Program-made: the position numbers and the translations under genes
Notes under the pieces: generated by a model
Databases searched by the model: none
What the model saw: only the letters and a program-made list of their open reading frames with translations
What the model was told of the DNA's origin: nothing
Shown: positions 11,570 to 52,759 of the stretch, one piece after another
Position numbering within the stretch: the first letter of the stretch is position 1
Layout of the letters: every line of letters starts with the position of its first letter
NCBI GenBank assembly: GCA_022393335.1
Contig: JAJEKB010021216.1
Span: 112,016 to 176,015, forward strand
Source: Macrotrachela quadricornifera
Lineage: Eukaryota; Rotifera; Eurotatoria; Philodinida; Philodinidae
Length of the DNA stretch: 64,000 bases
Direction of reading: 5' to 3'

Positions 11570-14500
11570 ATGTCTCACACTTTTTCTACCATATGCATAG
11601 ATAGTACAATGACCTCGCTTTCGTTGGTAGCCGACGATGCATTCCTATTGAATAGTTTCATCATTCTGGGTTGGTTGGCACTTATACTTAGGCCCAGAGA
11701 TCGTCTTACTCACTACATTGTCATAGCATCCGGATTCCTCTTCATTTTGAGCTGTCTAATCATATTCTGTCAATTGGCTATCCAACGAACGATGAACACA
11801 TCACACCCACATTTTTTTAGTCTTAATAATTTAATGAGTCTATATCAAGATGCTTTGTCTACCGTAGCCAGCATGGCTCATTTTCGTATGGCTCAATTGT
11901 GGATCGGCCTCTGGATGGCGATGGACTTTCATAGACGATTCACATGCGCCTATAATCTACAACCGAATATGGACGGCAACATTCCACGCTATAACAATTG
12001 GAATGAAGAGAACGTTGTATTCACAGGTATTCTTATCATTACTTATTTTCTCGCACCAGTCGGCTTAATAATCTACTTTCTGGCTACTCGAACCTACTTC
12101 CATCGATTCACCGCTAGTGAGCCTATTAACATACGAAATCCTCAGGATTTGAAGATAAAGAAGATCAATTCAGCTGTTGACTATGAGTTGTTAAACACAA
12201 GAACTATTCGATTTGGTGATTCTCTTCCTAAAAACTTACGCATAATCTATCGATTCATTAGAGGATTGATTGGCATTACTATTGGTTTTATCGTCTTATG
12301 CTTCTATGCAGGATATGTCATGTACTGCCTCATTTTTCATCGCACAAAGATGAGCGTTGCAGAAGAATATCCTCGATGGCCTCCTGCTTCTGTTCGAACT
12401 CATACAACTGAATCCGTTTGGCGATCGATCATTACACCTATAGAAGATCGTGGTTGGTTATGGAAACTTAAGTCATATTGGCTACAAGTATGCACATTCA
12501 TCCTTTTTGTTCCATGTGGCGAGAATCCACTTAATCTTTTTCGTGCAATTCAACATGATTTCTCGGAGAAACTAGGAAAATCAAACACTGCTGGCTTCTT
12601 TCCTTTTGGAGATGGTATTGGTGTGGCTAGCCACAAGTACGTTAAAGCCTATTTGGAAAGTCGTGATCCAGTTATCGTCAAAGACTTCCAAACGATTGGA
12701 TGGTCTGTATCAAGTTCACTAATTAAATATTGCAATTTCAACAACATCTTCTTGCCGAATCCAACTCATCCTATGCCAGATCGTCTCTTACTTAGTCGCA
12801 AAGTTGTTCATCAATGGTTAGCAGCCTTTCCTCATACATTACCAAATCTGGCGGATTTAAAGTCTAAAGAAAACACAGCGACTTATAGCTATTTATTTCG
12901 TCTTGTTCCAAGACTACCAAACAAGGAGCCAAGCAAAGAAGCTGTATATCATGCTGTTGGTGAGACGCTCTTCTTTTTGGCCACTGGTGGTGCACTAACA
13001 CGTGAAGAGCGTGACGCTTATGTAGATTGTGTCACTAATCCCTCTACGTTCCTACCTGATTGGCTCAATTTCATGGTTGCAGGCAGTTACAAAGAAAATG
13101 TCGGTTATGCCAGCTATGGAAAATTTCAGGCGGCATTCGCTCGTCATGCTCATGGACCTGCACTACAAGCAGCTTTTGAAGCAGCTGAAGGACATATGTC
13201 TAAGGATGAAGTCCTTCGATTAATTGTCTGTTCTTTTTGTTTAGGTGCAGCACCTGCACCCGCGAAAATCACTGCAAACGCCGTTCATAGACTGTGGTCA
13301 GATCAATCAGATGAAATTCAAGTTGGGCAAGATGACAAGAAACATGAAAAAATGGTAGATTTATTCTATGAGAATCCACGAAATTTCATCAAAGAATGTG
13401 CTCGTCTTTATCCAGTTTTACCGATGGTTGGTGTTCTTTCCAATGCAAACATAGATCATGATGTCAAGACTCATACTGGAGTAGATTTACCGGCTAATAC
13501 ACGCATTCACTGTTCTCTCTTTGATGCCAATCAAGATCCAAATGAATTTACAAAACCAAATGAATTTAATCCTAGACGTTCACCCATCGAAATGGGGAAA
13601 ATAATCACATGGAACGCAACTGAGAGTGGGATCGAACAAAAGAACGAAGCATCCCGTCCTCCTCGTTACTGTCCTGGACATGATTTATCTTTACAAGTCA
13701 TGGAATTTGTAACTTCTAGATTTGCACCTCCTGTTCTCACCTCACGCAATCTTAAATCTTTGGATCTGATGCAGGCTAATAGTGATGAGTTGATATTACC
13801 TAATGATATTATTAAGTCTGAGGCAGAAGTCCTGCATTCCATTAATAAAAGTGTACATCCTGATGATGATGACTCTGAGGTTGTTCTGGCTATTCGCGAG
13901 TTATACAGCCGTAAGCATCTGGGTGCCAAGACAGACGCGTATTATGTTTCTAGTCTCGATGGCTATACTCGATTGTTCATGAAAATATCAGCAATGGTAT
14001 CAAGTGGCTGGAACGCAAATCCAGCTCGTGCTATCGATATAGTCGAACCTTCTAACTTACCTACACAAAATCTTCATCTCAGACGAGCTGATGGTGCAAG
14101 ATTCGTAGCGACATGGGACGAAGATGATCAAAGTCTTTGGCATTTTCTTCCTAGATTGGTGAACAAGATTTTGAATTCCAAGCTCTGGCCACTTGAAGAT
14201 CTTGAGTTGCAATTCAATTCTATAGATGATATGATCGCATGGAGGCATAAACATTTTCCTTCGATGCCTGCACCAAACAATCCAAATTGGTGCGGCGATA
14301 GTGATGAACTCATGAGTCGTTTTGCTTTTTATGGTTTGGCCTGCCATCATACTCGAAAACTCGAATCTGGTATAGAAAGTATGGAATTGTACACCGCAAC
14401 TCTGACACATCCAATACTTAAATCAGCTCGGTATGTGAATGATATGACTGCTTTATCATTATTTGCTGTTCGAGCTCCTTTCGATCGCTATGGTGCCGCA

Positions 14501-15799
14501 GCCTACTTCGATCATGAACGCCGTTTGATTGGTATTTATCTTTCTCATCATGATGAACTGATCATGCCTTCAAAAAATTCATATGGTCCTGATAAAGATT
14601 GGACTTATGCCAAATATATGTGGCGATCATCGGCCCTTGCCTTAGTAACCATAAGGGATCACCTACTGATCACGCACTTCATTGAGGCCAATACATTGAC
14701 AACTGTATCCCGACAATATCTTCCTGCAGCTCATCCTTTGCGTATCTTTCTTAAACCATTTACTTATCGTACAGTGACTATTAATCTTTCGGCTGCAACT
14801 TCACTGGTCAATGCGGGCGGCCTTTGTCATAGAATTTGGGCATTCGACCACGGTGAGTTTGTCAAATTCTGTGATTATGTCATTGCTCATTACCGATTTC
14901 GTATCATGCCTGATTGGATTCCTGATAGCATGAAGTTGAAGCAGAATGGACAGTCTCATACTGAATCAAGTAATCAACGATGTAATAATACACATGCAAA
15001 AGAAAATACAGACAGTTGTGCAGTAAAAGAGAAATGTCCAAAGTGTGGATACAGCCTGACAGACTCTACTGAACATCTTAATCAAAATAACGAAGCCAGT
15101 GAAATAAATGGAATACCTAATGAAAATGATTCTGAATGGATAAAACATTACCCTATTGCAGTAGACTTGCCTGCATTTTGGAAAGTCGTGCGTGATTATG
15201 TAAGGCGATTCTTCGACATCGAATATGGGAAAGAGGAGTTGACAGAGAACGAGAAAGAAGGTAAAATAAGTTCAAAACGCGCATTTATGACTAGACGTTG
15301 TGAGCGTCGATTTATCTCTGAATTATGTCAACCATTGGGACTAGATGGTATTCCTAATCGTACTCGTTTAATTGATGTGATCACACAGCTTATTTGTGCA
15401 TGCACTGGAATTCATGAACACGTTGGACATGTCGCCGATTATCTTTTTGATCCTACTTTTATTGGTACTAAACTAAGGCGAGATGTACCATCTTTGTTAC
15501 CATCCGTACAAAACTATAGTCTAATGCTTATTTTGACTGTATTGACTGCTATGAAGATGCCAGGCTTGATGGGAGATTGGAGTCATCTCATTCCACGTGT
15601 TGCTACTGATGATAAAGAAAGTAAATTAGTATCAACCATAACTGAAGATCAAGTCAAATCTCATCTTGACAATTATTATTTATTCAAACAACAATTAACT
15701 GAACTTACGGAGAAGATTGATGAGCGACATCGAATGCCAGACACTTTTCCATTCCAATCCTTCAATCCTAGTTTCATGGAATGTTCAGTATCAGTCTAA
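11570..15799 (+). CDS. Fused ABA4-like / cytochrome P450 / lipoxygenase protein (1409 aa), candidate oxylipin synthase
   Basis: A single intron-free frame of 1409 codons. Residues about 18-178 are an ABA4-like (DUF4281) membrane domain: GWLALILRPRDR, SMAHFRMAQLWIGLW, LAPVGLIIYF. A further membrane segment lies near 228-256. Residues about 320-720 are a P450: ExxR helix ECAR at 609-612 followed by LYPVLP, then DANQDPNEFTKPNEFNPRR, and heme-thiolate Cys701 in RYCPGHDL. The I-helix stretch (about 553-572, LGAAPAPAKI) lacks the acid-alcohol pair of oxygen-using P450s. Residues about 850-1409 are a lipoxygenase: HLLITH at 1031-1036, RQYLPAAHP to 1056, HEHVGH at 1282-1287 and a C-terminal SVSV. A CPKCG cluster sits in an insertion near 1156. 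Likely reaction (inference): fatty-acid hydroperoxide made by one domain and rearranged by the other. G+C is about 40-43% in two hand-counted lines against about 25-30% nearby. With no introns, this suggests horizontal transfer. Confidence 0.9.
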   Translation: MSHTFSTICIDSTMTSLSLVADDAFLLNSFIILGWLALILRPRDRLTHYIVIASGFLFILSCLIIFCQLAIQRTMNTSHPHFFSLNNLMSLYQDALSTVASMAHFRMAQLWIGLWMAMDFHRRFTCAYNLQPNMDGNIPRYNNWNEENVVFTGILIITYFLAPVGLIIYFLATRTYFHRFTASEPINIRNPQDLKIKKINSAVDYELLNTRTIRFGDSLPKNLRIIYRFIRGLIGITIGFIVLCFYAGYVMYCLIFHRTKMSVAEEYPRWPPASVRTHTTESVWRSIITPIEDRGWLWKLKSYWLQVCTFILFVPCGENPLNLFRAIQHDFSEKLGKSNTAGFFPFGDGIGVASHKYVKAYLESRDPVIVKDFQTIGWSVSSSLIKYCNFNNIFLPNPTHPMPDRLLLSRKVVHQWLAAFPHTLPNLADLKSKENTATYSYLFRLVPRLPNKEPSKEAVYHAVGETLFFLATGGALTREERDAYVDCVTNPSTFLPDWLNFMVAGSYKENVGYASYGKFQAAFARHAHGPALQAAFEAAEGHMSKDEVLRLIVCSFCLGAAPAPAKITANAVHRLWSDQSDEIQVGQDDKKHEKMVDLFYENPRNFIKECARLYPVLPMVGVLSNANIDHDVKTHTGVDLPANTRIHCSLFDANQDPNEFTKPNEFNPRRSPIEMGKIITWNATESGIEQKNEASRPPRYCPGHDLSLQVMEFVTSRFAPPVLTSRNLKSLDLMQANSDELILPNDIIKSEAEVLHSINKSVHPDDDDSEVVLAIRELYSRKHLGAKTDAYYVSSLDGYTRLFMKISAMVSSGWNANPARAIDIVEPSNLPTQNLHLRRADGARFVATWDEDDQSLWHFLPRLVNKILNSKLWPLEDLELQFNSIDDMIAWRHKHFPSMPAPNNPNWCGDSDELMSRFAFYGLACHHTRKLESGIESMELYTATLTHPILKSARYVNDMTALSLFAVRAPFDRYGAAAYFDHERRLIGIYLSHHDELIMPSKNSYGPDKDWTYAKYMWRSSALALVTIRDHLLITHFIEANTLTTVSRQYLPAAHPLRIFLKPFTYRTVTINLSAATSLVNAGGLCHRIWAFDHGEFVKFCDYVIAHYRFRIMPDWIPDSMKLKQNGQSHTESSNQRCNNTHAKENTDSCAVKEKCPKCGYSLTDSTEHLNQNNEASEINGIPNENDSEWIKHYPIAVDLPAFWKVVRDYVRRFFDIEYGKEELTENEKEGKISSKRAFMTRRCERRFISELCQPLGLDGIPNRTRLIDVITQLICACTGIHEHVGHVADYLFDPTFIGTKLRRDVPSLLPSVQNYSLMLILTVLTAMKMPGLMGDWSHLIPRVATDDKESKLVSTITEDQVKSHLDNYYLFKQQLTELTEKIDERHRMPDTFPFQSFNPSFMECSVSV

Positions 15800-16840: not shown

Positions 16841-19157
16841 TCACGACGGTGATACTTGATTGTTTTTAGCATTCTTTTCTTTTCTTTCGCTTGTTCGCCA
16901 TCGATACTCGGCCAATGCATAACCACTGATCCCTACTGAAAGAAATATAAGGAGAATAATAAGAGTAATTCGAGTACGTATACGAGGAATAAGAATATAG
17001 AAAAGAGCAAATCCAGCCGACTCCCATAGGCGATAGTTTGAAAATGCTGCTTCGTTATTATCAGTGAATAAGATACCGTACAAAGCACTAGTTTGTGATT
17101 GCCAAACGGCATCAGCTACTCCCCAAAGGCCGGCTATGATAAAAAGAACAACTATTTGATCGGCTGAAGGGCGCCAAATAAGCATGGTGATTATCATCGC
17201 ATAACTGATCAGTGAAGCAATTGCAAAACATGGCCAACGTCCGACTAGTTTAACGAGTTGACCAAAAACAAAACTACCAATAGAATCACATACTCCAAAG
17301 GCAATCATGATAAGACCGACATATTTAGCATTGATTGCACATGAAACAAAAGCCTAATTATAAAAATGAGCAAACCATTTATCATTTGCAGTAAGAAAAA
17401 TACGGACACTCACTTGGGTAAATTGTGCAAAAAGAAATGTTAACTCAAGACCTGCCCATATAGTCATTGGAATAAGAAGAAGTTGATTAATATGACGCAT
17501 ATGCTTGATGGTTGATATGAGCAATTTCACTGAATTACGAAGCATAATCGAAATTTTATCTACGGATACCAACGAAAGTTTTAAAAAAACATAAAGAAAC
17601 ATATCCTACCACGAGATACTATACGTCGTTGATCAAGCGAAATGACCAAAGTAATTATTGAGCAAACACCTATGCAAACGTAGATTATACAGAGAATATC
17701 AATCTGAAATAAAATTCTTTTTAAATATGTCTAATCGAATATCTAAGTTATACTGTTCTTCGATCAATCTTATTATCAACTTCGGAACTCTGATATTCTT
17801 GTTCACTAAAATCAGCTCCACATTTGTCATATGTTTTGAATCGTAGTAGTGTGTTGTTTTTTGTTCCATTGATAGTAAAATTTGCTTTGTTTTCTGGTGT
17901 AAGTACCAAATATGATATCATATTGCCCCAAATCTGGCCTATATAGTAATATGAAAATGAAACAAAATAATATAATGTGTATATACAAGACAAGAATAAC
18001 AGACATGATTGAAAGAACGTGAAGAAAATACCAAAAAATCGATTGATAACTGCATTCTTATCGAGATTCTTTTCAGAAGCATAAACAGAGCCTGAATCAG
18101 TTAAATAACTACCTTTTGATGCCCATAAAGGAGCAGCAGAAAGGCCAACAAGTGCCGCAGCTATAAATGAAAAAATTAAAGATAAAAGAAAATGAAAGTA
18201 TTTCTTACTTGGATACATCAGATATGCTTTCGGATAATAATTGGCAGCTACGAAAAGAACATAGCTAAAAAAAGAAGAGTGTACATGTACAGCTACTAAA
18301 GACAAAAGATTACTCTTTTCACTCTCTTTTCTGTAAAAATCAATAATCGTAATCGTGCTTTCATTGTTATAAATCATTTGTAAGATGTATACATTAGTCT
18401 TTTTTCTGGTTTCGTGTCGTTTCTATTGCTGTGTAAATTATTTATCAACGTTTACTATTCCATATAATAGAGAATATGTTGTATAACGGACTATGTTTTA
18501 TTCAAAACTAATACTTGAAATAATTCAAAAAACCGATTTTTATAAGAGATAATATGATGTTTTCATTCAATTATAAATGAGAATTCTCATGACGTTATTC
18601 ATTGTGTTTGTCTTGCAGTAAACTTTAACACTTGTTAGCAATCATCTTTCACAAAAAAAGGGATTATTTTTAAAAAAAATGCAAAAGAATAGATGAAATC
18701 ATGAATTTTCATTGCTGGAAATTACGCGAAAAAAATTTTAATCTTTTGTTTCTGCTATGAAAATCTTGAGACATAGAAAGATAGGTAGTTGTTTTACTAT
18801 TTTTACTTACGATATTTGAGAAATCACTAAAGTCCATTTAAGGCCAAAGATGGACATCAATGGATGTGGCAAAAATATAGATGAAATGATAAGAAAAACA
18901 TATATGATCGACGATGAATTGACGCCAATATTAGCCTCTGTATTGAGTGAACTTTGAAGATTTTGTATACCATTAAATGCAGTAAATTGAAGTAGAAATG
19001 CAATGCTGATCGCCAATAAATTTTTGTATGTTCGAAATCTTGATTGTTGTTCTTGTTGTTTTCCTGGTGAAGTTGATTCATCATTAGTAATAATATCATC
19101 ATCGGTGATTGTTCGACCCGTTTGTGTTTCCAACTCAACATTTGAGACTCCTGACAT
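16841..19157 (-). CDS. UNC93-like major-facilitator membrane protein (498 aa, 7 exons)
   Basis: Exons on the minus strand: 19157-18811, 18264-18209, 18160-18005, 17938-17754, 17703-17610, 17559-17414 and 17353-16841. They sum to 1497 bases in phase. Family landmarks appear in order: LSSIFLPHPLMSIFGLKWTL, SYVLFVAANYYPKAYL, ALVGLSAAPLWASKGSYLT, FFTFFQS joined to GQIWGN, LLLIPMTIWAGLELTF, GVCDSIGSFVFGQLVK, and GLWGVADAVWQSQ followed by EAAFSNYRLWESAGF. This is a polytopic membrane protein of the UNC93/UNC93A group, related to regulators of potassium channels or receptor trafficking; its cargo here is unknown. Introns are 546, 48, 66, 50, 50 and 60 bases. The 48- and 66-base ones are in frame and stop-free, so naive translation adds false hydrophobic inserts. 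It appears intact. Confidence 0.9.
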
Positions 19158-23480: not shown

Positions 23481-24202
23481 ATGTTCCATCACTGATTTTG
23501 AGGAGGAAAGCTTTACAACTTGTATTTGATGTGATGAAATTCTATATTTTCATCACCTTTTTGTTGCCGATCATACGCATTTTTTAGTTCATGTGGTTGA
23601 TTTTTTTGCATTGTTTTAGCTAATTGTTTTGAAATAAAATTTCTGATTCTTCTAACTAAATTGTTGGAATAACAAGTAATAATGCAGACAGATAATTATC
23701 TGCGAAACACATGTGCGATGCCCTTATTTATGACAGAAAAATATATGTTCGATATTAGATCCTGTTTACTATTTACAGTATTTTACAAAAAAGGAGAATA
23801 ATATAAGAGTCATATGTATAGTATATGAAAAATGAAAAAGTTTGATTTTCTGTTTTTTTTCAAACTAACACGAAAGCAGCTACTATATCGATATTAATGG
23901 TATGCATCCAGGTCTCTATAGGAAAGGTTGGTTTAAAACCTTTTCTCAAGAAAGAGGATGGTACTTAAATATATTCTCCCGTGAGTTAATTATGTTCACG
24001 TTTGATAGTGGACACATCGATATCGAGTGATCAAATTCATTACTACAGAGTATATCATCACAAAATTGGAATGAACTCACATTCAAAATTATTGTCAGAT
24101 GGCTTTGATAACAAAAGAACAGAAAAAATCAGTCCAGATGCATTATATTCCCACTTATTAGTCTTCTCCAATACATACACTCGTCATCGGTTCTTATTCT
24201 AC
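23481..24202. other. intergenic, upstream region of the GH31 gene
   Basis: No gene recognised. A splice-acceptor-like 'ttcttattctacag' ends at 24204, 8 bases before the GH31 ATG. Confidence 0.35.
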
Positions 24203-24212
24203 AGATTTCAAC

Positions 24213-25871
24213 ATGATAATAACACGTTTTCTTGAATTACTTCTATTTTGTCCTCTGTTCGTTCTATCATCCAACCTTCCGTATGCCGAATGGGCTCATT
24301 ATCACATGGTATGGTTGTCTAGTGGGGAAACAAATCAAACTAATATTCAAGCTATGTTCGATAGTTATTTTGCTCATCAAATTCCTGTCGGTATTCTTAA
24401 TATCGATGCGGGCTGGGCAACTCATCATAGTACATTCGTCTTCGATTCAAAAAAGTTTCCCACTCCACGAGAAATGCTCGATGGGATTCGAGCGAAAAAT
24501 GTTCATATTGTTCTTTGGTTATGTTCATTTATCAATATTGATTCGCCAAATTATCAATATGCCCAAGATCATGGATTTCTATTTAATAAAACAATCAAAT
24601 GGTGGTTGGGTCAAGGTCGATTATTAAACTATTTCAATGAAAATGCTGTTGATTGGTGGCATAGTCAAATTGAACAGCTTATTAATACTGTTGGACCTAT
24701 TCATGCTTTCAAAGTAAAATACTGATTAATTTGAAAAGATTTCATTGTTCCTTCTCTTTGAAAGGCTGATGGAACTGATCCATATATTATCGAAGTTCTT
24801 GATCGAAAGGTAACCTGGCAAAGCTATCGAACAGCTTATTATAACGATACATTTCAAATCTTACGTCGTTTAGTGGGTTCCGAAGCTCTCATTATGTCCC
24901 GTCCGGTCGACTACGATTTAGATTATTCACCTCATGACATTGTTTTCATGGGTTGGGTCGGTGATGAAGATGGCACTTACGATGGACTTCGAACCGCACT
25001 TCGTTACATGCTCGAAAGTGGTCGTCGCCATTATGTGGGCTTCGGATCGGATATTGGTGGCTATCGAACCGATCCTAATGCTGGTCCACTTGGCCGTACT
25101 AAAGAGGTGTTTCTTCGTTGGACAGCTATTGGTGCATTGAGTTCATTTATGGAGAACGGAGGCAATGGTGAGCATCTTCCATGGAATTTCGATGTAGAAA
25201 CAGTGGATATTTATCGATCTTGGGTCAATTTACATTACGGTCTCGTACCCTATCTATTTACCGAAGGTACCAAAGTCGCTCTTGCAGATAACGGTACTCT
25301 TATGCGACCGTGTGATGACATTGAAACTCTGTTTACTTATACGTATTTTCTCGGTCCGAAGATTTATGTTGTTCCAGTTTTACGTGACCCTACACCGAAT
25401 CAAACACAACGTCTTTGGCTTCCAGTCAGTGCAACAGGTAAATGGATATATACCTTCAATACATCACAAGTACATCCATCACACTCATTCATTAACGAAG
25501 ACACCAGTCGTTTGGATCGAATTCCAATGTACATACAACAGAGTTCATTGATAACTATGTACGATCTCGAACGAAGTCAATCACTCAATACTTTCAAATT
25601 TGTTCTTTGGGGTAAAGCACTCTTCGATAATCAATCAACATCACTATTTACACGCGATGGTCAAGAATGGCTATTAAAATTCGAACGTAGTCAAAAACGA
25701 TTAACGACATATTTTGTTCGTATGCACGAGTCAGACAACAATGAACAACAACATCAACCATTGGTTTGGATCTGGAGATTTTGTCAATATGCTCGAGGTC
25801 ATCAGATATGCTCTAAAACTTGGTCACAACTTCATGAAGGCGCATACAGTGAACTGGAATTTTTACTTTAG
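24213..25871 (+). CDS. Glycoside hydrolase family 31, secreted (535 aa)
   Basis: Two exons, 24213-24713 and 24765-25871, separated by a 51-base GT-AG intron; both are in phase. Residues 1-20 form a signal peptide (FLELLLFCPLFVLSS). The (beta/alpha)8 barrel follows: WAHYHMVWLSSG, VGILNIDAGWAT, IVLWLCSFIN, nucleophile Asp169 in HAFKADGTDPYI, and acid/base Asp263 in GFGSDIGGY. A C-terminal beta domain ends at TWSQLHEGAYSELEFLL. The enzyme should cleave alpha-glucosidic or related linkages outside the cell or in a vacuole; its substrate is not deducible. The usual N-terminal beta-sandwich of about 200 residues is missing, which may be a subfamily trait or truncation. Exon 2 is GC-rich (29 of 60 in one counted line). 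That, with a single intron, hints at a horizontally acquired gene. A poly(A) signal lies at 25984. Confidence 0.9.
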
Positions 25872-31493: not shown

Positions 31494-31505
31494 ATATTAA
31501 TTGAT

Positions 31506-33777
31506 ATGATGGAATTGAACGCAAACGTTATTATTCAAGGAGTTAGTTCTCATCCTGTCATTCCTAAGGTGAATGGGAAAATAAAGTTTCGTCGACGTCG
31601 TTCAATCATTCGAGAATTTAGCTTGAATACATCAACTCTAGGTATTCCAGGCATTGTTCGAAGTGAAAGTATACACAATCGCATCTTCTGGTCTGCAGCA
31701 TTTTTGATATTTACAGGTGTCATGTTATATTTTGTTGTTGAGGCAATTCTTGCATATTTCCAATATCCAACACAAACAACAGTGAGCATTATTAGTGAAC
31801 GACAACAATACTTTTCAGCATTAACTTTTTGTAGTGCTGGTGGAATTCGGTACGATACTTTTACTGGGCCATTTACAAATTATATAAATAGTTTAAATTT
31901 GACAAATGTTAGTAATGAAAATTCATTCTCTTCAATTCAAGCCCAATTGATGAAAGCTTATGTACCAATGATTATTAATCAAGGAGGACCAATAGACCAA
32001 TATATGTATACATTGGATTCGTTAATGATGGACTGTCAATTCAATGAAGCTCCATGTTCGGCTAAAGACTTCATTTCATTTTATTCATTAGTACGTGGTC
32101 GCTGTTTCACATTTAATGCCAAAACAAAAAATGGCAGTATACGCTATAGTTATATGAGCACTAGTGCAAGTACGCTCAGGTTGCGTCTCTATCTTTACAC
32201 TTATCAATATATATCTTTCATTTCAGAAGGTAAATAGTAGTATGCGAATGAATTTTTTTCTTATATTTCTATACATTTAGGCGTCGCTATGATAGCGAGG
32301 GTACATGACAACACACAACTACCTCTTATTGAAAGAGCTGGTATGACCTTACCACCTGGTTTTAAACATAGATTGACCTATACGAAAAAATCAGTCTATT
32401 CTCTAACATCATCGAATTCATCATATACAAATAAAATTCCTCTTGCCATGAAAATCATGTTCGATGAATATGAAGGAGCCGATTATGCCTATTCAGAAGA
32501 TATCTGTTATATCTTATGTGCACAAGCATACATGCTCTGATAATAAATACATGATAATGCACATGCTTCACATCGTGATAAGCAGTTGCTCTTCAGTATG
32601 TATCAGAATCGTGTTTTCGGAGGAGAACTTGAAATAGTCTCACAAAATCCCAACCTTCAAAATTGACACAGATACCAAATCTCTGTGAAAGACTCGTTTT
32701 CAATACATACCTTTACATATGTCTCTTTATTTCGCAGATAAATAGTGCTTATTTGAGCTAGTAGCATCTGATTGCAAGATAAAGCAAAGAGTATATCATC
32801 GATGTCAAAATACCTTTCAATATCAAGATAAGGAGTGAGGAAAGGTGAGTGTGCTACTCGACAGCTACCAAATATAAAACAAAACCACCAGGAGCAGCAG
32901 TCATTAATTTTGTTCGATGTTCAAGTCATGTGCGAAGAGGATAATACTCTTATAAATGCACTCATTTTGCCCTAGTGATACGTGTGATTAAATAGCATGT
33001 GTCTACGTGAATAATGTGTATAATGTATATTGTGAAGAAACATTCATTGCTGTCTTAATACAAGAAAGTTACAACTAGTTTTTACTGTCTATTCACTGAC
33101 GGAACTGAGCAGAACAAGTATTCAATTTTACCTGTCTCGCACCACGTCGCCTTCTGTTCTACTTTACTCCGTTTATTTTCCGTTCCGTTAATCTTTGGTA
33201 GGCAGTTAATATTATTTGTATGAATGCTGATGGACAAAAACTTTTTCTTTTTGTTTTCAGCTATGCACAATGTGGATGTATATATCCTGGACAATGGAAT
33301 GCTTGTTCTATAGTCTTGCCGAGTACAAATAAAATTGTTAAAGCGTCTCTGTGTAATTCATCCAACAGCTGTTTTTTTAAAGCAATGAATACTTTCGATT
33401 CGACGCCATCTCTTCATGATCAGTATTGTTCATCCTGTTCACAACAATGTTCGATTACGAATTTTATTGTCAAATTATCACTATCAACCTCACCACCTGA
33501 ATGGCTTATGGGTAGCATTAAGAAATTCGTTGAGAATTCATCAATTCCTTTGCCCATTAATTGGTCGAGTCAATGGCGTGACTATATTCGTACAAGTTAT
33601 CTCTCATTAGAATTGATGGGCGAATCGACTCTAACTAAAAATTATACTCAAACGGCAACTTTGGGAATAGTCGATGTTATTTCAAATGTAAGTGGACAAA
33701 CAGGTCTTTGGATTGGTATTAGCTTTCTCTCATTAATGGAATTTATAGAAATTCTTTTATCGACTTATACGATATAA
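31506..33777 (+). CDS. DEG/ENaC (amiloride-sensitive) sodium channel subunit (497 aa)
   Basis: Exons 31506-32229, 32281-32533 and 33261-33777 sum to 498 codons in phase. The order is: cytoplasmic N-terminus with FSLNTSTLGIPGIVRSE (residues 38-54); TM1 (about 61-85, FWSAAFLIFTGVMLYFVVEA); a cysteine-rich extracellular domain with LTFCSAGGIRYD, ICYILCAQA, QCGCIYP and CSSCSQQCSI; and TM2 preceded by GGQTGLWIG-like SGQTGLWIGISFLS, where GIS is the selectivity-filter triplet. It would form a trimeric cation channel in the plasma membrane. The gating 'His-Gly' before TM1 reads Leu-Gly here. Intron 1 is 51 bases. Intron 2 is 727 bases and seems to use a GC donor (at|gctctg). A splice acceptor lies just before the start (gttttag ends at 31493). 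Confidence 0.85.
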
Positions 33778-42900: not shown

Positions 42901-45900
42901 TGTACGAATATTATCGTACCATATAATATCTTTGCTGACATCAATGTCTCTTTTCATCCGGTATGTTCGAGTGTTTTCGTCACTAAAGAATGGATTGAAG
43001 CACTTCGTCTGCCATATGCAAGTTCACTTTTGGTGATGGACTTTCGAACGACGGCTAGTTCTCAAGTGAGTAAATCTTTTTTGTTGTCAGATGTATGTCA
43101 TTGTTATCAAATGTAAGGTTCTCAAGTATAATGAAAAACAGCAACTTTATAGCAATTAATAGGTTATATTCGCACACCTTTTGCACTGTGAATAGTTTAA
43201 AATATGTCATAGATCGTAGCTTTGTAGATTAACCTTACAAAAACGATATGATATTGTTCATTCGACTAGTTTTGAGTTTCATAGCATCCATTGTACTTTA
43301 TCTATCTACGTACAACCATTTCAGTACCGTATGGTTGGATCTAAGATTTAAATAGAAGAAGCGATACTGGAACTTCAGAATCTTCTCTAAACAGTAGCAA
43401 GATTATATAAAGCAGCGTCTACTATATGTAATACTCACCAATGAGGAAGAAATAATGAATAAAATAATATGAAAACAAGTATATCATTTTTTAGCAAGTA
43501 CATAGATGTTTTCTTTTAAATCCACATACTACCAAGCAGGGTTATTTTCAATCCTATTCTCAAAATAAGTATAAGATGACAATATATTGAATCTCCTTAG
43601 ATAAGATAATTTTCAGTTACTTCAAATGTTTTCTTTTAAACACATATGTATCAACATTTTATTCATGATATTTAACAGAGAAATTAGGATTTTTAGATCT
43701 TTTTACTTGAAATAGGATCACTTGTAATATCCAATATACTAGACTCGGTAGTACAAGGATTAACTTTGACGAAATGTAACAAATAAATATTTTTAAAAGA
43801 TAATCTTGATACTCTCGGATAGAATTTGAGAAAAGCTATTGATTCATATATGAAATGGGTTAAATAAAGTGATAGGAACTTCACATGAATAAGAAAGAAA
43901 GAATTACAAAGAACAAAAAGTGACAAAAATAAGTTTTATCATGACGAGATTTCTTACGAGATCATTGTAACGTGGAAAAATTGGTGATGTTGGATTGACT
44001 TTTTGAAAACAATTGATTCTATACGCACAATTTTAGAATACTGTATGCTTACAGAACGAGTAGGAGACGGATGAGGAACATTTAGGTCGTTTCGTATATG
44101 AATCGATCTGGATGCATATAAAAATGTCTATGAAAAGTTTTTATAAAACAATGTAAAAACAGAGAGTAAATCGTTTCGATTATGCCACAACTTACGAGAT
44201 TCTGTAAGCCACTCCATAAGCGTTCTATAAATTATACATAACTATATCATAACCGAATCTCTATCAATCAGAGTTTATGAATCACCATAAAGACGCCATA
44301 TTTTAGTCGTTTTATTCGATATAGGTAATATTAATCTTATCTAATTGCATTACAACAGTTGAGCAAACACAAATACTACAAGTAGAAGTATTTCACTTGT
44401 ACTTTAGATATTGTATCTGTACTTAAGTACGAAAAAAAACTCGGTATTTATACTTAAGTAAAACTATGAAAGTATCTATTTTGAAATACAATTAATGATG
44501 ATAAATATTTTTTTTATTTGAAAACCTCTTAATACATTTCTCATAGAATTGAAATGTAAACCATGATATAAATGCTCTGTTTTGTTATCTAAAGAAAATG
44601 ATAAGAATGAACATTTATATGTACTTCCCTTTGAAATATCCCATACAATCACACATAATGAAATAATCCACCTCATCATTTTTATATCACATTTCTTTGA
44701 ACGATAAAAGTCAATGTTGTTTTTATTTCACACTTTGTTTTAATTGGAAGATAGAGTATAAACCACTGTTTTATTATATTTAACTATTCCTTACTGACGT
44801 CTCTCATGTCTATGGATGGCAGAAAATGATTTTAAATTTCTATATCTATGTTTTAACAGTTCTGCGATTTTAAAAATCTAGTCGATTTTATTCGAATACT
44901 CATTCATTAATTCATTTTTATGCTTATCTGAGACATTTTTTTGGAACAAAGAAATGAATTTCACGAATTTTTCTGCGTTGTAGCATCATTATTGATGAAA
45001 ATTCTAGAAAATTTGCCAGTTTTGTAAAGTACAAAATAGAAATGTTTGCAATATTGGAAAGATATTATATCTGTAACACTTTCGATCATGTCACCACTAT
45101 AAAATCTTTGAAAGATGGAATGAGAAAACCTTATTTATTCAGGAGAGAAAAGCAAACTATCTAGATCAAAGTAGATAATTTATGAAATCAATACTATATT
45201 TTCATCATAAACAACACATATCAATATTCGTCTGAAGGTTTTTCTTGCAAAAGTAAAAATACTAATTGTCAAAATACCCTCAATGATGGTTTTATCGAAA
45301 ATGATCCTTATCATCATCACAAATCTGATTACATTAAGGAGTTAAATATATATAGTTGCTTAGTTATCACTAATTTTAAACAATCATTAGCATCAATAAG
45401 AAGTAATTGTTATACATAAATAGTTTTATTTTGCACAATTGTGTTCAAGAGGAATCGTCATTTTTATCTATATTGTATAAGCTACTCGGGAGTCATTGCC
45501 TGATTCTGATTACCTAGTTCTCTTTATGGTTAATATTTTAATCAACTATAAATCGATTAAAACAATTAGAATCAAAACGGTAGCGTTCGAGCATTTAATA
45601 GAATACAAAACTGTCTCTCTTTATGTATAGTTTGAGCTTCTTGCCGCTATTTGTTCGGCTTGTCAAGATGCAGTTCTTCAAGCTGTGGTCGATTCTGGTA
45701 ACAACTACCTCGTTACCATTCAACTCCTACGAGAAAATCAAGTTCAACCTCATATTGATGCGAATGTTCAGATTGCTAAAACTAGCACACCTGTTCTAAT
45801 TACTTCACCATTAAAATTAATACAAACAGCAACACGCTCAAACTTTCTGATCTCGAGTCTCAATACAAACGTTATAATAACGATAACACCCCAACTATTC

Positions 45901-48900
45901 ACACCGAATTATCTAATGGAGCAATCAACGTATTATGTTAACAAAAATGTTTCCATTCAAGAAGCTGTTTATGGTTCACCTTGCTATTTAAGAGGACCTA
46001 CAGTTCCAGCTGGCTTCTATTCTTTACCATACGATGAAAGTGCGAATAACCATCAGTTCTGGCCCCAATTCCCGCCTAGCTTCGAACCCAATGCTTCTGC
46101 AATGATAGATGGATTCTTTGGAGGATGTGTTCTACTTGATGGTCTTCTTGCAAGTACATTTGATTGTCTTTACAATGTCAATTGTCTTCAATTATTTCCT
46201 CATTACTTTCCAGCTCTCAATCAAGTATGTATTGTACAGTATTATTTGTTTTCACATAAAAATTAATTTCATCTAGACAACTTTGAACTGGACTATCGGT
46301 CTTTCATCTTTAAACAAACCAAATATTTCTTTACAAGATAGTCTAGTTAATTTACTCACTGAAGAATGGTCAATCAAGATGAACTATTCAATGTACTTTG
46401 TCAAATGTGCTCCCAAACACTGCACATATACAAAAATAGATTATATGAATATTTCTTATACAATTACTTTATTACTTAGTTTATACGGTGGTCTCATAAT
46501 GATCCTACGTATAATTGCAGGTTTCTCAATTAAAACCTTATCAAAATTTAAATGCTGTTCATTCATCGATACCACTAAAAATAGTATGATTTTATTAAAA
46601 TGAGAAAAGAATGTTATTCTAATTTTGATTAATGTTTTAAATTTTAGTGCATCTCGCGATATGTATCCGAAAATTCATTCAATGGATGAAACAATTAAAC
46701 TTGTTCAAGTCGGCCAATCATCGAACAGAAAGTGATTTAGAGAAACAGCGTATTATCACACGCACATATTTGATTTTCCTTGCAAGTAAAGTACAAATCG
46801 AATAACTATGCGATATGATTAAGTAGCCAATTGTAGTTTTCGTTGTACAAAAGAAGAGAGTGATAGAAACATCGAATAACATTATAGTGTACAGATTATA
46901 TAGAAATCTCAATGTTTATTTAGAAATATACAGAGAAGTGTCGTCATTATTCACGACTCTCCCAAGTACAAGTAACTGTTTTTACCAGATATCGAAACGA
47001 ATAAGAAAACCTCGATTCAGTTCACAAAGGAAAAACATAGCTTTTCTAATGTATGACTAAAGTTTTTGCATCTCCATATGCTGAAAAATTTATAAACTCG
47101 AAAGAAACGCTATATGAATTAGCATAACCTGACAATAATAGATATGTGTATTCTCAGCAATAGATAACGATATTACTTTGTTAACTTAATTAATATTCAT
47201 ACAGCTATCATGTTGTAAAATAACAAGAGACGTATGAAGAAAAAGTAGTGAACTAAGATTTATTTTCACTCAAGCTCTAACAAGCATAGTGATCAAATTA
47301 ACTGTACATGTATTTATTCGCGTTTACGAGTTAGCAGTTACCGAATTAATGAAAAGTATCCTTTTTCAATGAAAATATATTGAGGTGAAAAGAGAAATGA
47401 TAGTAATTTTGGTGTTTTTATAATGATTAAATNNNNNNNNNNNNNNNNNNNNNNNNNNNNNNNNNNNNNNNNNNNNNNNNNNNNNNNNNNNNNNNNNNNN
47501 NNNNNNNNNNNNNNNNNNNNNNNNNNNNNNNNNNNNNNNNNNNNNNNNNNNNNNNNNNNNNNNNNNNNNNNNNNNNNNNNNNNNNNNNNNNNNNNNNNNN
47601 NNNNNNNNNNNNNNNNNNNNNNNNNNNNNNNNNNNNNNNNNNNNNNNNNNNNNNNNNNNNNNNNNNNNNNNNNNNNNNNNNNNNNNNNNNNNNNNNNNNN
47701 NNNNNNNNNNNNNNNNNNNNNNNNNNNNNNNNNNNNNNNNNNNNNNNNNNNNNNNNNNNNNNNNNNNNNNNNNNNNNNNNNNNNNNNNNNNNNNNNNNNN
47801 NNNNNNNNNNNNNNNNNNNNNNNNNNNNNNNNCCACTCCTAGGTATGCCCTATCTAACTATCATATCCTCGACCGAAAAACTTTTTATCACCTCGGGTGG
47901 TTCCCTCGTGAGAGAAACTGTGTATAAAATACTGGAATAAATTGGAAGGAGATTTCCACCATGTTGCTTCTCTACGTAGATTTTGAATTACGCATTTATA
48001 AGAAGATGCTTGACTTGTACCAAAGCTTGCTAATGATAAAAGTAAAATATATTCACGAAACTGTCTTGTATGCAAAAAACGGAATCTGTTTTTCTTCAGA
48101 TTAAATATACGACGATACATAATCTCCCTTTTTTATTTAGTTCAAATTCAATTTTACTAGCATGACTATGAATTCGACAGTTTCTAATTGCATCTGTGCT
48201 ACAAATCCTTATTGTCAAATTCCGGTCAGTGTTGAACTACCGTATCAAATCTCAGGCAGTCCGACTTATCATACTTATTACACAGCACCAGGCATGGTTA
48301 AAGGATGCTATACAATGGATACTCTTATGCTTTCAACACTTGAATGCTATCATTTAGACTCCTGTCTAGATATTGAATATGTCTTTATCAATCTATCACG
48401 ATATTATGCAATGACAGATTCTCCATTGTTCAAAATCTCTCCTCTCACTTATGAACCAGAGTCAAGTCGTTTTCCTCCAAATATTTCAGTGTCAATGATA
48501 GTTAAACAAATGATGGTTGAACAATGGAACCCTTCATCTTCGTATGATCATTATTATGAAGCCTGTGCACCGATTTCTTGCACATATTCTCAAAAAACAC
48601 GCACTAGTAATTTCATTGGAATCGTTATTAAGTTAGTCTCTATAATTGGTGGTCTTATTATGGCACTACGCTTAATTACACCTCAATTAATTAATATTAT
48701 TTTTAGACTACTCAGACCAAAGACCAGAAGGCAACGACAAGGTAATTAATGCGATGCAAAATAGAGCATTTTTATGAACGATGACGAGTTTTCCTTTTTT
48801 TTCTTTTCTCGATGTCGACATCAAAGGTTGGCATATTGGTAAGTAATGATCTCACCAACGAAAAGTCAGAAAATAGTCGTTGAAATGTGAGATCTAAGTT

Positions 48901-51900
48901 TTGAGATCCAGTGATTTTCATCGATTTTCAGATCTTCAACAGGTAGTTCCGTGCTTTTACAAAGCCTCACAAACTGACGATTTTTTGAAGATTTGAGACA
49001 ATTAAAATGTCTTAGCAATAAAAGTCGTTAAGATTTTAAAACCATTAATTGAATTAATTATTATAAAAACTACACACTTTTCATGGATATTGAATTAGAG
49101 CTTTGCAGCTTACCATCATACACGAGAGTATTTTTTTTAAATTTAATTGTTGTACCAGTGTGATACTGATGGGAATTTCGTTCTTATTATTATGTTTTAG
49201 TATGATTTCTAAGTTCTATAGTGTGTATACACAGGACTTCACCTTCTTCGAGCTGTAACACGTTCTTAATCAATGACTTGTCTTTCGGAATTCTAACAAC
49301 AGAGCACCCGAATAATAAATCTACCGATGCAAATTTCAAATCTAGCTATCAAATATTCAAAAATTATAGAAATTTGTACAAATATAGATGTTGAAAAATG
49401 GAAAATAATTATTTTAGAGTATTACTTGAATTGAGAATGAGCAAGAAAACAGCTATTCATTGTTGAGAATATGTAACTTACATTGACTAGAAGCGTAAAG
49501 AACAGTCTCTTCTCATATAATCTACAAAAAATAATAATTAATAAATATTTCAAGAGAACAAAGGCGAGATGTAGGAATAAAGATGACGGTAAACTGAAAG
49601 AATATTGACACAATAGAAGAGAAGTATTTCTTTTTCATAAGAAGATTCAGCCTCTTTTCTTTTCTTTTTTTTATAATTATCATTTTGAAGTAGGGTATGA
49701 ACGCGTTCGTGTTTTTTTTGCTGTATCTAAAGTTTACAATAATTTCTTTTGTTGAAAAACAAACATCGCACACTGACGATCAGAAATCTGCTTAAACGGG
49801 TTACAAAATGAGATTTGCTACGTTCTTAACAAATGACATTCCAAAATCTCAACAGTTTATGTTAACTTCTTCTAATTTGTCATGTAAACTTCATTGCGAT
49901 GCTAATATTACTCTAATGTTGAAAAACTTGAAAGATCTCTTTTCAAAGCTTTATTTTTCTTTTCTTTTTCAGAAGATGTGTCGGGAAATTTCGATAATAT
50001 GTCTTATTTTACGTGATTAAGATAATCTTAAGTATATTTGACAAGTCTAATAGATTTATCAGATGAACTTTTCTGTACTTAATACTAATCTTAAATGAAG
50101 CTTTTCCTTTTACTTTTCTTTATTTTTTTACAAAGTATTTTTAACTAAAAGTAATCTGTTAGTTAAATTCTTTTACGTTATAGAATGGTAAAGAGCACCT
50201 CTGTATAGAGATTTTACGTTAAAAAAATGAATAAAACTTGTTGTTTACATCAGTTTTATGTAATTAATATGGCTGTAAATCTTCTCAAATTGCTTGTGAA
50301 CATTTTGATTATGGATAACTAGTTTTATTCGTCTACTGTAACTTGATAAATTACTATTTCAAAATATCTGAAAGTCCTTTTAATGCATTTTCTATTTTAA
50401 CAATTGACAGATTCTAGTTATTTCATAGCAAGATACGAGCGAACACAAATATGTTTTTTACAGGTAATCCAAAACTGTTCGATCGAATCAAACAAGGGTT
50501 ACGTAAACTAGTGAAGCTCCTGTTAACTACACTAATCAATCTGAACATATTTTCAATACGGACGTTTGGAAGTAAAATCAATCGTATGAAAGCGAAGCGT
50601 CTTGGTCAATTGGCCACTCGATTCTACATCATTGCACTTATCATTGGTCTCACTATTCTCAATCTATATACTATCATTCGACCAGAAATTCTGACCAAGA
50701 CTTTTGCTAAACCATCTATCGATATCTACAACAGCCTCTTACTCGAACATGGTGATACACTTGAATGTCCCTGTTCCTCGATTTCGTCGATGTACGATCG
50801 ATTCATCGACATTGAACCTGTATTTCATCAAGTAAGTAAATAAAATCATTTTGAACTATTATAAAAAAGTGAAATTAAGTCTTCATCCCTACTTAAAATA
50901 AATTCTTTGGTAAATTTTGCTTCGTCATTTGTTTAAAGCATTCTGAGAATTTGACATCAGCTGTATTACATTGAATTGAACTGAAACTTTCTGTACCTAG
51001 ATAATAGTCATCCAAACGTCATTAAAAATTCCAGGCTTCATATTTCCAATTATATTCTATTACGACATTGAGATAGGTCGATTTTTTCTTATTCGAGAGA
51101 TCATCCTTAAATCTAAGGACACTCATAATTATTTTTTTGTTTTGAAAAAGTTGAAATAAAGAAGTTTTATTTTGATTATCTGTGCTTTGTCATGAAATTT
51201 CGCTATTTTGGTAGAACTTTGCATCTATCCTAATAATTTTGACTTAACACATAGCAAAACTGATTAGAAATGGAAAAAAAATCAAGAAATTGAGTGATGA
51301 ACATCATTGATTCTAAGATTCTTCGTTTGAATAAGATATAAATATATGATTGCATCTCCTACTGTAATCGAATTGCGTTAAAGATACAGAAAACCACAAA
51401 ACTGATCTTCGTTCTACAAATCAAGAGATGCAATGCTAAAATTTTCTTCCATATATATGACTACTCAGCTCTAATATTTGGAAAAAGTTTCAATTCGATA
51501 GCATGTTATAGCTCGGAAATCTTTTTTTAGGAAAGGATTTCAAATAAATTTCATTGAAAAATTATAATAGACATCATCATGATTTTAGAAAAGTTTGATA
51601 TCGTTTATCATAATTGTATTCCAAAGATGATAAAGATACTTTTCTATATAAGTTTTATTGATTGTAGGTATGTTCAAGTCCATTTGTCACAGATGAATGG
51701 CGGATGAATATCACAGCTGGTCTCATGCCTAATCTCTCTATTTATAATGTCAAAGACTATCGCCGTTTCCTGTCAGCTCATTTGCAATTTCTTTCTGGTT
51801 TATGTAATCATTCTATTCAATCAGTCATGAATTCTGTTAGTCAGTTTCTTTCGTCACTTTTCGTTACCGCTCAACTGCTACCCAAAACAATTTTTCATAC

Positions 51901-52759
51901 ACAGATTGACTTACTCATTGAACGTAGTAAATCAAATGCTCCTATAAGTTTTGCTCGTCTGCTTTCTCTACTTCGAAATACAAATCATGGAAATGCTATC
52001 ATAACAGCCTATGGAACAAATTTTGAATATATTGCTCCTTGGTATAGTGGAGTAAGTAAATCCACAGCAATTACCCAACCAATGTTGTATGACAATCAAT
52101 GTTCATGTGCATCATCTACAAATTGTACTATCTCAGCAGGTTTTATCAAAGAAAATTCATCTATTATTCTGGAAGTTAAGGGTTTAAAAATGGGTTGTAC
52201 ACCAACAGAATCATTACTTGCTTCAACACTTGAGTGTTTTTATGATCTATCATGTATTAGACTTATTCAAGAATTTACAAATAATATTGATAATAATAGT
52301 TATACTACAAATGTTTCTTTAAAACTTCCTGCAGACAAGAGTCGATTCTCAATCAACACTACTGTAGTTGATCTTGTGCGATATCTTTTCATTGAAAACT
52401 GGTTAGTAACAAGTAATTATTCAGCATATTTTCATCAATGTTCACCAATATTGTGCTCACATACTTATATTCAAAAGATTAATTCGCTTTATACAATAAC
52501 TATTCTACTTGGCCTTTATGGTGGTCTCACGTTTGCTCTTGAATGGATTTGTCCCAATCTAGTTTATCTTGCCAATAAAATTTATCAATGTCGAATGAAA
52601 CGAAGAAATGTTGTTGGCGTTGTATCTACTATTGAAATGACTGCGAGTGAGACAATCAATGCAACATTAACCTCCATAAACGTTCGCAACACCACTGCAG
52701 ATTTCAAGCCGATATCTCTAACTTCAACACCTACGTATACTGCTGTTTTAAATTTTTAA
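39993..52759 (+). CDS. Multi-module membrane protein: three tandem cysteine-rich two-TM modules (interrupted by an assembly gap)
   Basis: Exons fitted by phase: 39993-40161, 42773-43065, 45631-46224, 46277-46583, 46648-46785, (one or more lost in or near the N run), 48141-48741, 50464-50831 and 51668-52759. Each module has a basic cytoplasmic linker; a TM1 (TRLYIVLFI|ITFYILLFIAL, RTYLIFLA|, ATRFYIIALIIGL); a PSIDIYN...TLECPCSSIS...VCSSPFV block; an ectodomain with QCSCASSTNC, CTPTESLLASTLECFYD and ENWLVTSNYSAYFHQCSP; and a TM2 ITILLGLYGGLTFALEWI. Exon junction phases connect the end of one module to the linker of the next, so this reads as one gene. The family is abundant in bdelloids and otherwise unrecognised; function is unknown, and the architecture suggests a cell-surface receptor or adhesion protein. 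The very long introns (2611, 2565 and 1722 bases) are unusual here. Intactness across the gap cannot be judged. Confidence 0.7.
40800..41460. other. possible decayed transposon in intron 1 of the module gene
   Basis: Fragments such as LRDNVEIVRSIHERDLSQ and INDAMLDFLEEHR can be read near 41255-41475, near a motif 'ccatccaaaaagtccgaac' at 41043. The reading suggests a Tc1/mariner-like relic, but the frames are too broken to be sure. Confidence 0.3.
44350..44475. repeat. short palindromic repeat fragment in intron 2
   Basis: Repeats of 'acttgtactt' and the palindrome GTACTTAAGTAC with related 'tacttaagta' recur within about 120 bases, as in the ends of some hAT-like MITEs. No second end was found. 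Confidence 0.35.
47433..47832. other. assembly gap (400 N)
   Basis: Exactly 400 N, which suggests a placeholder or estimated scaffold gap. It removes the middle of module 2. Confidence 0.99.
47854..48120 (-). other. 88-codon minus-strand frame beside the gap, unidentified
   Basis: The frame reads MYRRIFNLKKNRFRFL, TRQFREYILLLSLASFG and so on to a stop near the gap edge. The composition is protein-like and REYILLLSLASF faintly recalls the FRRFLSAHLQFLSGL stretch of module 3, but inverted with respect to the gene. It could be an inverted duplicate, a mis-scaffolded piece or chance. Confidence 0.3.
48742..50463 (+). other. 1.7 kb intron between modules 2 and 3
   Basis: It starts gtaatt and ends ttttttacag. 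It joins 'caa cga caa g' to 'gt aat cca', restoring a Gly codon. Only chance frames are found inside. Confidence 0.6.
50464..52759 (+). repeat. Module 3 of the tandem-module gene (complete)
   Basis: The acceptor 'ttttttacag' precedes GNPKLFDRIKQGLRKL, then TM1 IIALIIGLTILNLYTII, LLEHGDTLECPCSSIS, an 836-base intron, VCSSPFVTDEWRMN and a long ectodomain exon. It ends with a cytoplasmic tail rich in Thr, Ser and Val (EMTASETINATLTSINVRN) and a stop at 52759. This tail looks like the natural C-terminus of the protein. Confidence 0.75.

Follow-up and report, generated by a model that had tools for sequence, protein, structure and literature searches.

The stretch of DNA analyzed here (the window) covers 64,000 nucleotides of the rotifer Macrotrachela quadricornifera and holds a single-exon gene whose product, P0001, joins an ABA4-like membrane domain, a cytochrome P450 and a lipoxygenase (LOX) in one chain. 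This three-domain architecture is real and conserved. We consider it probable that the protein is a membrane-tethered bifunctional enzyme of single origin, in which a LOX is coupled to a hydroperoxide-rearranging P450 behind an ABA4-like anchor. A first-pass annotation of the sequence had placed the three domains in one chain, and Pfam matches, predicted folds, conservation across bdelloids and selection on six genomic copies bear this out.

One open frame encodes three domains

The frame runs from ATG to stop through 1409 codons without interruption (11570-15799, + strand), and its start, stop and length are those given at first pass. At the local frequency of stop triplets, the log10 probability of 1409 consecutive codons free of stops is about -42. 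The GC content of the gene is 0.40, compared with 0.31 in the 5-kb flanks. All of the motifs previously quoted from the translation (ECAR, DPNEFTKPNEF, RYCPGHDL, HLLITH, RQYLPAAHP and the terminal SVSV) are found in P0001.

Profile searches, a check proposed at the outset, gave significant matches, above the Pfam cut-off, to all three domains: PF14108 (ABA4-like; residues 27-169, E 2.9e-8, 34.6 bits, cut-off 27), PF00067 (p450; residues 605-670, E 1.4e-6, 27.8 bits, cut-off 22.8) and PF00305 (Lipoxygenase; residues 1008-1088, E 8.3e-8, 31.6 bits, cut-off 23.6). Because the latter two matches span only part of each profile, the P450 and LOX domains are divergent. Structure prediction recovered most of a P450 fold and most of a LOX fold in an AlphaFold model, and fold alignment places them at residues ~306-722 and ~826-1409, respectively, covering most of both folds. 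Fold searches were dominated by LOX rows, which make up all of the best 50 of 1505 Foldseek matches and most of the best 50 of 1000 VIA-align matches; CYP74 and CYP152 rows are absent among these listed matches, which excludes nothing. Hydrophobic peaks lie at residues 24-42, 49-67 and 154-172 in the ABA4-like region, and PF14108 is matched by 16 of the 22 rows of alignment A1 at E <= 0.1. Neither a PLAT domain nor a reductase domain is among the Pfam matches of P0001, and a cyclooxygenase-like haem dioxygenase is not among the six Pfam families at E <= 1.

The fusion is conserved in bdelloids and under purifying selection

A protein search with the fusion returned 21 matches at E <= 0.001, and the ten with organism names are all from Adineta or Rotaria. 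The proteins form two families, I (P0001-P0011) and II (P0012-P0021), in the trees built for the LOX and for the P450 alike (P0021 was omitted from the former, P0011 and P0025 from the latter). Named members of family I come from Adineta only and those of family II from Adineta and Rotaria.

To find copies within the genome itself (450 Mb, 5695 contigs; the window is C4582:112016-176015), we used the Rotaria sordida protein P0012 as query. Six intact family-I copies lie on four contigs: C4582 at 123 kb (the window gene) and 237 kb, C4245 at 358 and 452 kb, C5058 and C3697. Each has an open frame of 1413 codons from stop to stop and encodes 1409 amino acids, with 87-96% identity among the copies. 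Some may be alleles: on C4582 and on C4245 alike, two copies in opposite orientation are spaced by ~100 kb, the arrangement expected of homologous segments. Over the 15 pairs of these six copies, dN/dS is 0.23-0.41 overall, 0.10-0.47 in the P450, 0.15-0.37 in the LOX and 0.20-0.63 in the ABA4-like domain. It rises to 0.98 in the linker and to 1.46 in residues 176-284, where few changes make the ratio unstable. Purifying selection acts on all three domains.

The first-pass annotation would have given up the fusion had transcripts split the frame into separate genes. At the level of DNA the frame holds in family I, where it is open through the linker in all six copies, and it is interrupted in one copy of family II. 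Of the family-II copies, one on C2945 has an uninterrupted open frame of 1232 codons, and another (C4691:73309-77194; L012/L014) consists of two frames, between which ~60 bases of the P450-LOX linker run from GT to AG and resemble a short intron. Two further family-II loci, C4691:123984-126677 and C4466:1606809-1608936, contain stops and are probably decayed. That separate genes were run together through an error of assembly or annotation is scarcely credible: although all of the evidence is at the DNA level, the frame is uninterrupted, six intact copies of equal length occur on four contigs, and long homologues exist in several species.

A second lineage emerged from an outlier, P0022, which led to P0023, P0024 and P0025, all metagenome proteins with the same order of P450 and LOX. 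We count the four as relatives because they give long alignments to the rotifer proteins and high profile scores (242-269 bits for the LOX of P0022-P0025; 231-259 bits for the P450 of P0022-P0024). The region ahead of the P450 is longer in P0022-P0024 than in the rotifer proteins, and P0025 is truncated. In P0024 this region contains EF-hands (residues 148-215) followed by a weak ABA4-like match (residues 228-297, below cut-off); the EF-hand pair suggests calcium control.

Iron and haem ligands in the two catalytic halves

P0001 has a LOX fold with two histidines in HxxxxH and a third histidine, as a member of the LOX superfamily should. H1031 and H1036 are the same in 25 of 25 alignment rows, and H1282 in all 24 rows that reach its column. 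A1075 is invariant across the 25-row alignment; we assume that this position goes with S or R stereochemistry as in other LOXs, Ala going with S. A further side-chain ligand, Asn (or His or Ser), normally lies four residues beyond the third histidine. Here that place is held by G1286, a pairing taken from the alignment with solved LOX 6ns2 (the 12-LOX alignment has a gap there). Because the fold and the other ligands hold, we read Gly1286 as a departure within the LOX superfamily. The LOX chain normally ends at the iron site, where its C-terminal carboxylate, usually that of Ile, is a ligand. All 24 readable rows end at one column and the profile extends to the end of 12-LOX, with Val, Ala, Thr, Arg or Lys as the end residue.

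The P450 half likewise has the P450 fold, the ExxR motif and the haem cysteine that define the superfamily, and E609, R612 and C701 are identical in 25 of 25 rows. The I helix of P0001 (residues 551-569) lacks an acid-alcohol pair. Its motif is FCLGAAPAPA, with FCVAGS and FAIAGA types in other rows; CYP74A has FNTWGGMKILFP. Ahead of the cysteine, 18 residues from position 683 to C701 form an extended loop, whose length differs among rows and which other P450s may share.

Membership in CYP74 was suspected from the WNGxE...CPGxD loop, and neither the profiles nor the I helix uphold it. CYP74 is absent among the best 60 of 188 solved-structure matches of the fusion P450 profile. CYP152 fatty-acid peroxygenases carry Arg-Pro in the I helix; this mark is not present in residues 551-569 of P0001, which scores 22.4 bits with the NCBIfam CypC model (cut-off 600).

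Bacterial relatives of the LOX accompany CYP74-like P450s

Prokaryote species genomes were scanned with two peptide patterns, yielding 31 stretches; four of these (L001-L004) proved to be relatives, with the similarity lying in the LOX part. With the rotifer LOX profile they score 257-275 bits; the best solved LOX reaches 64.6 bits with the whole-family LOX profile, a different profile, so the contrast is a rough one. A LOX match occurs in 21 of 63 genomes of the bacterial order, distant LOXs included, and by the order searched the hosts are Myxococcota. The L003 record is titled as a Klebsiella pneumoniae metagenome-assembled genome (MAG), yet is placed in an order of Deltaproteobacteria MAGs, and is probably mislabelled.

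We examined 16 bacterial stretches, 11 with a LOX near the fusion type and five with distant LOXs only. A CYP74-like P450 gene is found in 8 of the 11 and in none of the five, flanks being unequal and several contigs ending close by. It adjoins the LOX gene in six (L001, L003, L004, L037, L042 and L043), lies one frame away in L002 and 5.4 kb off in L045, and is absent in L033, L044 and L046. A profile built from four of these eight P450s finds four of the seven other close-LOX stretches. The best solved match of the bacterial P450s is CYP74A, at E 1.4e-5 with one sequence (P450 BM3 rows from 2e-5) and at E 5e-8 with the profile, followed by ferruginol synthase at 4e-6. Three of the P450s beside a LOX are broken, those of L003 (5613-6981) and L004 (5589-6687) over two frames and that of L042 (8117-9727, - strand) by a stop, through sequencing error or decay. 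Divergent from the LOX gene of L001 is an 809-residue fusion of an alpha/beta hydrolase with a CYP74-like P450 (1657-4083, - strand). Its hydrolase part has an epoxide hydrolase as best solved match (E 2e-26), making the locus a possible epoxy-alcohol pathway.

The third-histidine motif, TGIHEHVG in rotifers, reads TGLHEAVG or TGLHEHVG in the close bacterial clade (10 of 11 read, L043 not among them), so that Gly (HExVG) is present in all ten. Distant bacterial LOXs have Gly, Ser or Ala at the Asn place, by motif reading rather than alignment. Among them, L031 and L032 (- strand frames) show HHKLVGG at the third-histidine site, and the Asn ligand may thus be missing beyond the clade of the fusion. 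L048 (G032 C340, 5533-11169) has three consecutive LOX frames, two of them with HHVVA and HKLVS at this site.

Two fusion P450 profiles found no match among 1127 bacterial frames at E 1e-3, and as far as profiles tell, the P450s of the fusion and of the bacterial loci are akin at the superfamily level only. If so, such LOXs have paired with P450s twice. No ABA4-like domain was found in the eight frames searched at bacterial LOX loci. A candidate bacterial fusion in G002 C343, a 1745-residue open frame, was rejected as a LOX of ordinary length after a long open stretch without homology recognizable by eye. In the protein database, a LOX-profile search gave 21 matches; the ten inspected, including P0020 and P0011, resemble the whole fusion or fragments thereof. 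No stand-alone LOX is among these ten, which means little because no match scored like the four bacterial LOXs in the query. None of 20 pattern stretches in the viral_contigs scan is related, and a plasmid search gave one weak match, a Pseudomonas aeruginosa LOX (30% identity, 38% covered, E 1e-3).

A probable single origin of the fusion

The LOX tree contains 31 LOX domains, using 12 of the 24 fusion rows. These 12 group in one clade (support 100/100), with the 11 close bacterial LOXs as its neighbors (91/90). A topology grouping rotifers with the close bacteria to the exclusion of P0022-P0025 was rejected (approximately unbiased test, p 0.0004), the group having been named after the tree was seen, and long branches and uneven composition were flagged in the tree. 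The single LOX clade makes one fusion event likely. This event most likely predates the divergence of the two bdelloid families and of the P0022-P0025 lineage, and subsequent inheritance or transfer into bdelloids seems likely.

Proposed reaction and competing explanations

In the reaction that we propose, the C-terminal LOX would oxygenate a polyunsaturated fatty acid, giving what is probably an S-hydroperoxide, and the adjoining P450 would take this hydroperoxide and rearrange it to epoxy alcohol, allene oxide or aldehyde products. The P450 would need neither O2 nor a reductase because the peroxide itself would serve as the oxidant. The ABA4-like helices would keep the enzyme at the membrane, the site of its lipid substrate. 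The protein may thus be, as the first-pass annotation supposed, a self-contained, membrane-bound oxylipin synthase, a single chain that would supply fatty-acid signalling or defensive compounds. The scheme is modelled on the coral and fungal fusions (PMC5617202, PMC13049297) and on CYP74 chemistry (PMC10813956), and the chemistry is plausible. In its favor we count the CYP74-like P450s in 8 of the 11 bacterial stretches, the epoxide hydrolase fusion, as an epoxy-alcohol pathway would need, the lack of a reductase domain by Pfam, and an I helix free of the acid-alcohol pair.

Several observations weigh against this proposal. The CYP74 motif FNxxGG is not present in the I helix of P0001. The best solved matches of its P450 are CypX, other P450s (including CYP150A6) and CYP152, and the match to the bacterial CYP74-like P450s is weak, with an hhalign probability of 15.8% and, in a second comparison, 28.6% for rotifer and 1.1% for non-rotifer P450s. 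The membrane anchor would suit a reductase-driven P450 equally. Within the LOX, all 24 readable rows have Gly instead of Asn at the position of the fourth ligand, and the end residue is not constant (Val in 18, Ala in one and Thr in one of the 20 rotifer rows; Arg or Lys in the four others). Pfam matches of P0022-P0025 are also weak: the LOX is below cut-off in all four and the P450 above it in P0023 and P0024 only. The missing Asn of FNxxGG is not decisive, because the Asn of plant AOS is apparently not required in the fungal partners, according to the passages cited (PMC13049297).

Should the P450 instead be an O2-dependent monooxygenase, it would hydroxylate the LOX product with the help of the membrane P450 reductase of the cell, and the fusion would provide proximity only; we regard this as unlikely. 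Membrane segments at the N-terminus, the absent CYP74 Asn and best solved matches that include CypX and CYP150A6, both of which we take to be monooxygenases, would suit such an enzyme. However, its I helix has no acid-alcohol pair, the bacterial LOX kin accompany CYP74-like P450s, and its haem-cysteine loop is extended, as in the peroxide-using CYP74 P450s of the passages cited (PMC10813956).

Less likely still is that one catalytic half is dead or altered, with the Gly-for-Asn LOX serving as a hydroperoxide isomerase or binding domain, or the P450 as a scaffold. The invariant Gly, the variable last residue and the low Pfam scores of both domains point that way, but the three histidines, the position of the C-terminus, ExxR and the cysteine are kept in every readable row, both domains are under purifying selection, and the same Gly is present in all ten of the close bacterial LOXs read, with Gly, Ser or Ala in the distant ones.

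Beyond the bifunctional enzyme itself, we tentatively suggest that the family may be an independent oxylipin synthase built from a dioxygenase and a haem enzyme: a membrane-anchored P450-LOX (one member with EF-hands) shared by the P0022-P0025 lineage, perhaps microbial, and bdelloids, perhaps by gene transfer. Its P450 would be a non-CYP74 one, and its three-His, Gly-substituted LOX would have bacterial kin that pair separately with CYP74-like P450s.

Features of the gene and its neighbors

The coordinates of the fusion gene and its parts are collected in Table 1. Nearby frames of the window match UNC-93, an amiloride-sensitive sodium channel, glycoside hydrolase family 31, NHL and FG-GAP, some in pieces, like intron-bearing genes. 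Directly downstream, on the opposite strand, are UNC-93-like pieces (16841-18422, -), the second below the Pfam cut-off. A two-piece glycoside hydrolase family 31 gene (24162-25871, +) and an amiloride-sensitive sodium channel gene in pieces (31494-33777, +) lie farther on. Frames at 45631-52759 resemble sodium channel pieces by eye; the one scanned (51668-52759) has no match above cut-off. A run of N, masked or a gap, occupies ~47431-47840.

Table 1. Positions of the fusion gene and its features in the window.
Feature	Coordinates	Strand	Basis
Single-exon gene, fusion protein P0001 (1409 aa), stop included	11570..15799	+	Frame reading; six intact genomic copies
ABA4-like (PF14108) membrane domain, residues 27-169	11648..12076	+	Pfam
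Further hydrophobic segment ahead of P450, residues 238-256	12281..12337	+	Hydrophobicity
Cytochrome P450 fold, residues ~306-722	12485..13735	+	Predicted structure
P450 I-helix region, residues 551-569, LIVCSFCLGAAPAPAKITA	13220..13276	+	Sequence, alignment
P450 K-helix ExxR (E609, R612)	13394..13405	+	Alignment
P450 haem-cysteine loop RYCPGHDL (C701), extended loop ahead	13664..13687	+	Alignment, sequence
P450-LOX linker, residues ~723-780	13736..13909	+	Poorly conserved; model confidence low across much of linker
Lipoxygenase catalytic fold, residues ~826-1409	14045..15796	+	Predicted structure
First two iron histidines, H1031 and H1036	14660..14677	+	Alignment
A1075	14792..14794	+	Alignment
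Variable insertion in LOX domain, residues ~1122-1188, CPxC motif	14933..15133	+	Alignment; part of family I
Third iron histidine H1282, then G1286 at +4	15413..15427	+	Alignment; G1286 opposite Asn of solved LOX 6ns2
C-terminal SVSV, main-chain carboxylate the expected last iron ligand	15785..15796	+	Sequence, alignment

Relation to known systems and significance

In animals, the proteins known to us in which a dioxygenase is joined to a haem enzyme that uses hydroperoxides are the catalase-type fusions of corals, AOS-LOX and HPL-LOX, which to our knowledge have no ABA4-like domain. The rotifer LOX also differs from theirs in its Gly at the Asn ligand. Furthermore, the haem domain of the coral proteins (Plexaura, Capnella) is catalase-related in the passages cited (PMC5617202), whereas that of the rotifer is a P450. 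The fungal DOX-CYP proteins (linoleate diol synthases) are alike in combining a fatty-acid dioxygenase with a self-sufficient, hydroperoxide-isomerizing P450, as the cited portion of PMC13049297 has it. Their dioxygenase is an N-terminal, cyclooxygenase-like haem enzyme, according to the part of PMC9579011 cited, while that of the rotifer is a non-haem LOX C-terminal of the P450.

The CYP74 clan (AOS, HPL, EAS and DES; CYP440 and CYP443 in animals) offers the expected chemistry on LOX hydroperoxides and an extended haem-binding loop, with nine extra residues. The cited passages describe this chemistry as needing neither O2 nor a redox partner, and stress the I-helix groove (PMC10813956). The same passages present CYP74 proteins as enzymes of their own (PMC10813956); the fusion P450 differs from them also in having neither FNxxGG nor profile support. 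Plant LOX2-AOS-AOC2 complexes resemble the fusion in LOX/P450 channelling, but are non-covalent assemblies of separate proteins in the portion cited (PMC6411374). Closest on the LOX side are the bacterial pairs (L001-L004, L037, L042, L043 and L045), with a neighboring LOX clade, HExVG and a P450 adjacent or within 5.4 kb; there the two are separate genes and the P450, to judge from profiles, belongs to a different lineage.

The first-pass annotation knew of no described P450-LOX fusion with an ABA4-like anchor, and our search agrees: no LOX-P450 fusion was reported in the open-access literature searched by title and start of abstract, a scope that leaves out most subscription papers and preprints. 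The combination of parts is thus not described in the literature searched, and varies a known theme, the joining of a dioxygenase to a haem enzyme that uses hydroperoxides.

A design other than the coral catalase-type fusion is maintained in several copies in rotifers, and any role of it in bdelloid tolerance of desiccation or pathogens is speculation. Covalent coupling of a LOX to a P450 would allow substrate channelling to be tested directly; plants rely on complexes for it, in the portion of the source cited (PMC6411374). The Asn-less iron site, the P450 that is still unplaced and the locus in bacteria that unites a LOX, a P450 and an epoxide hydrolase each offer a lead to new lipid chemistry that can be tested.

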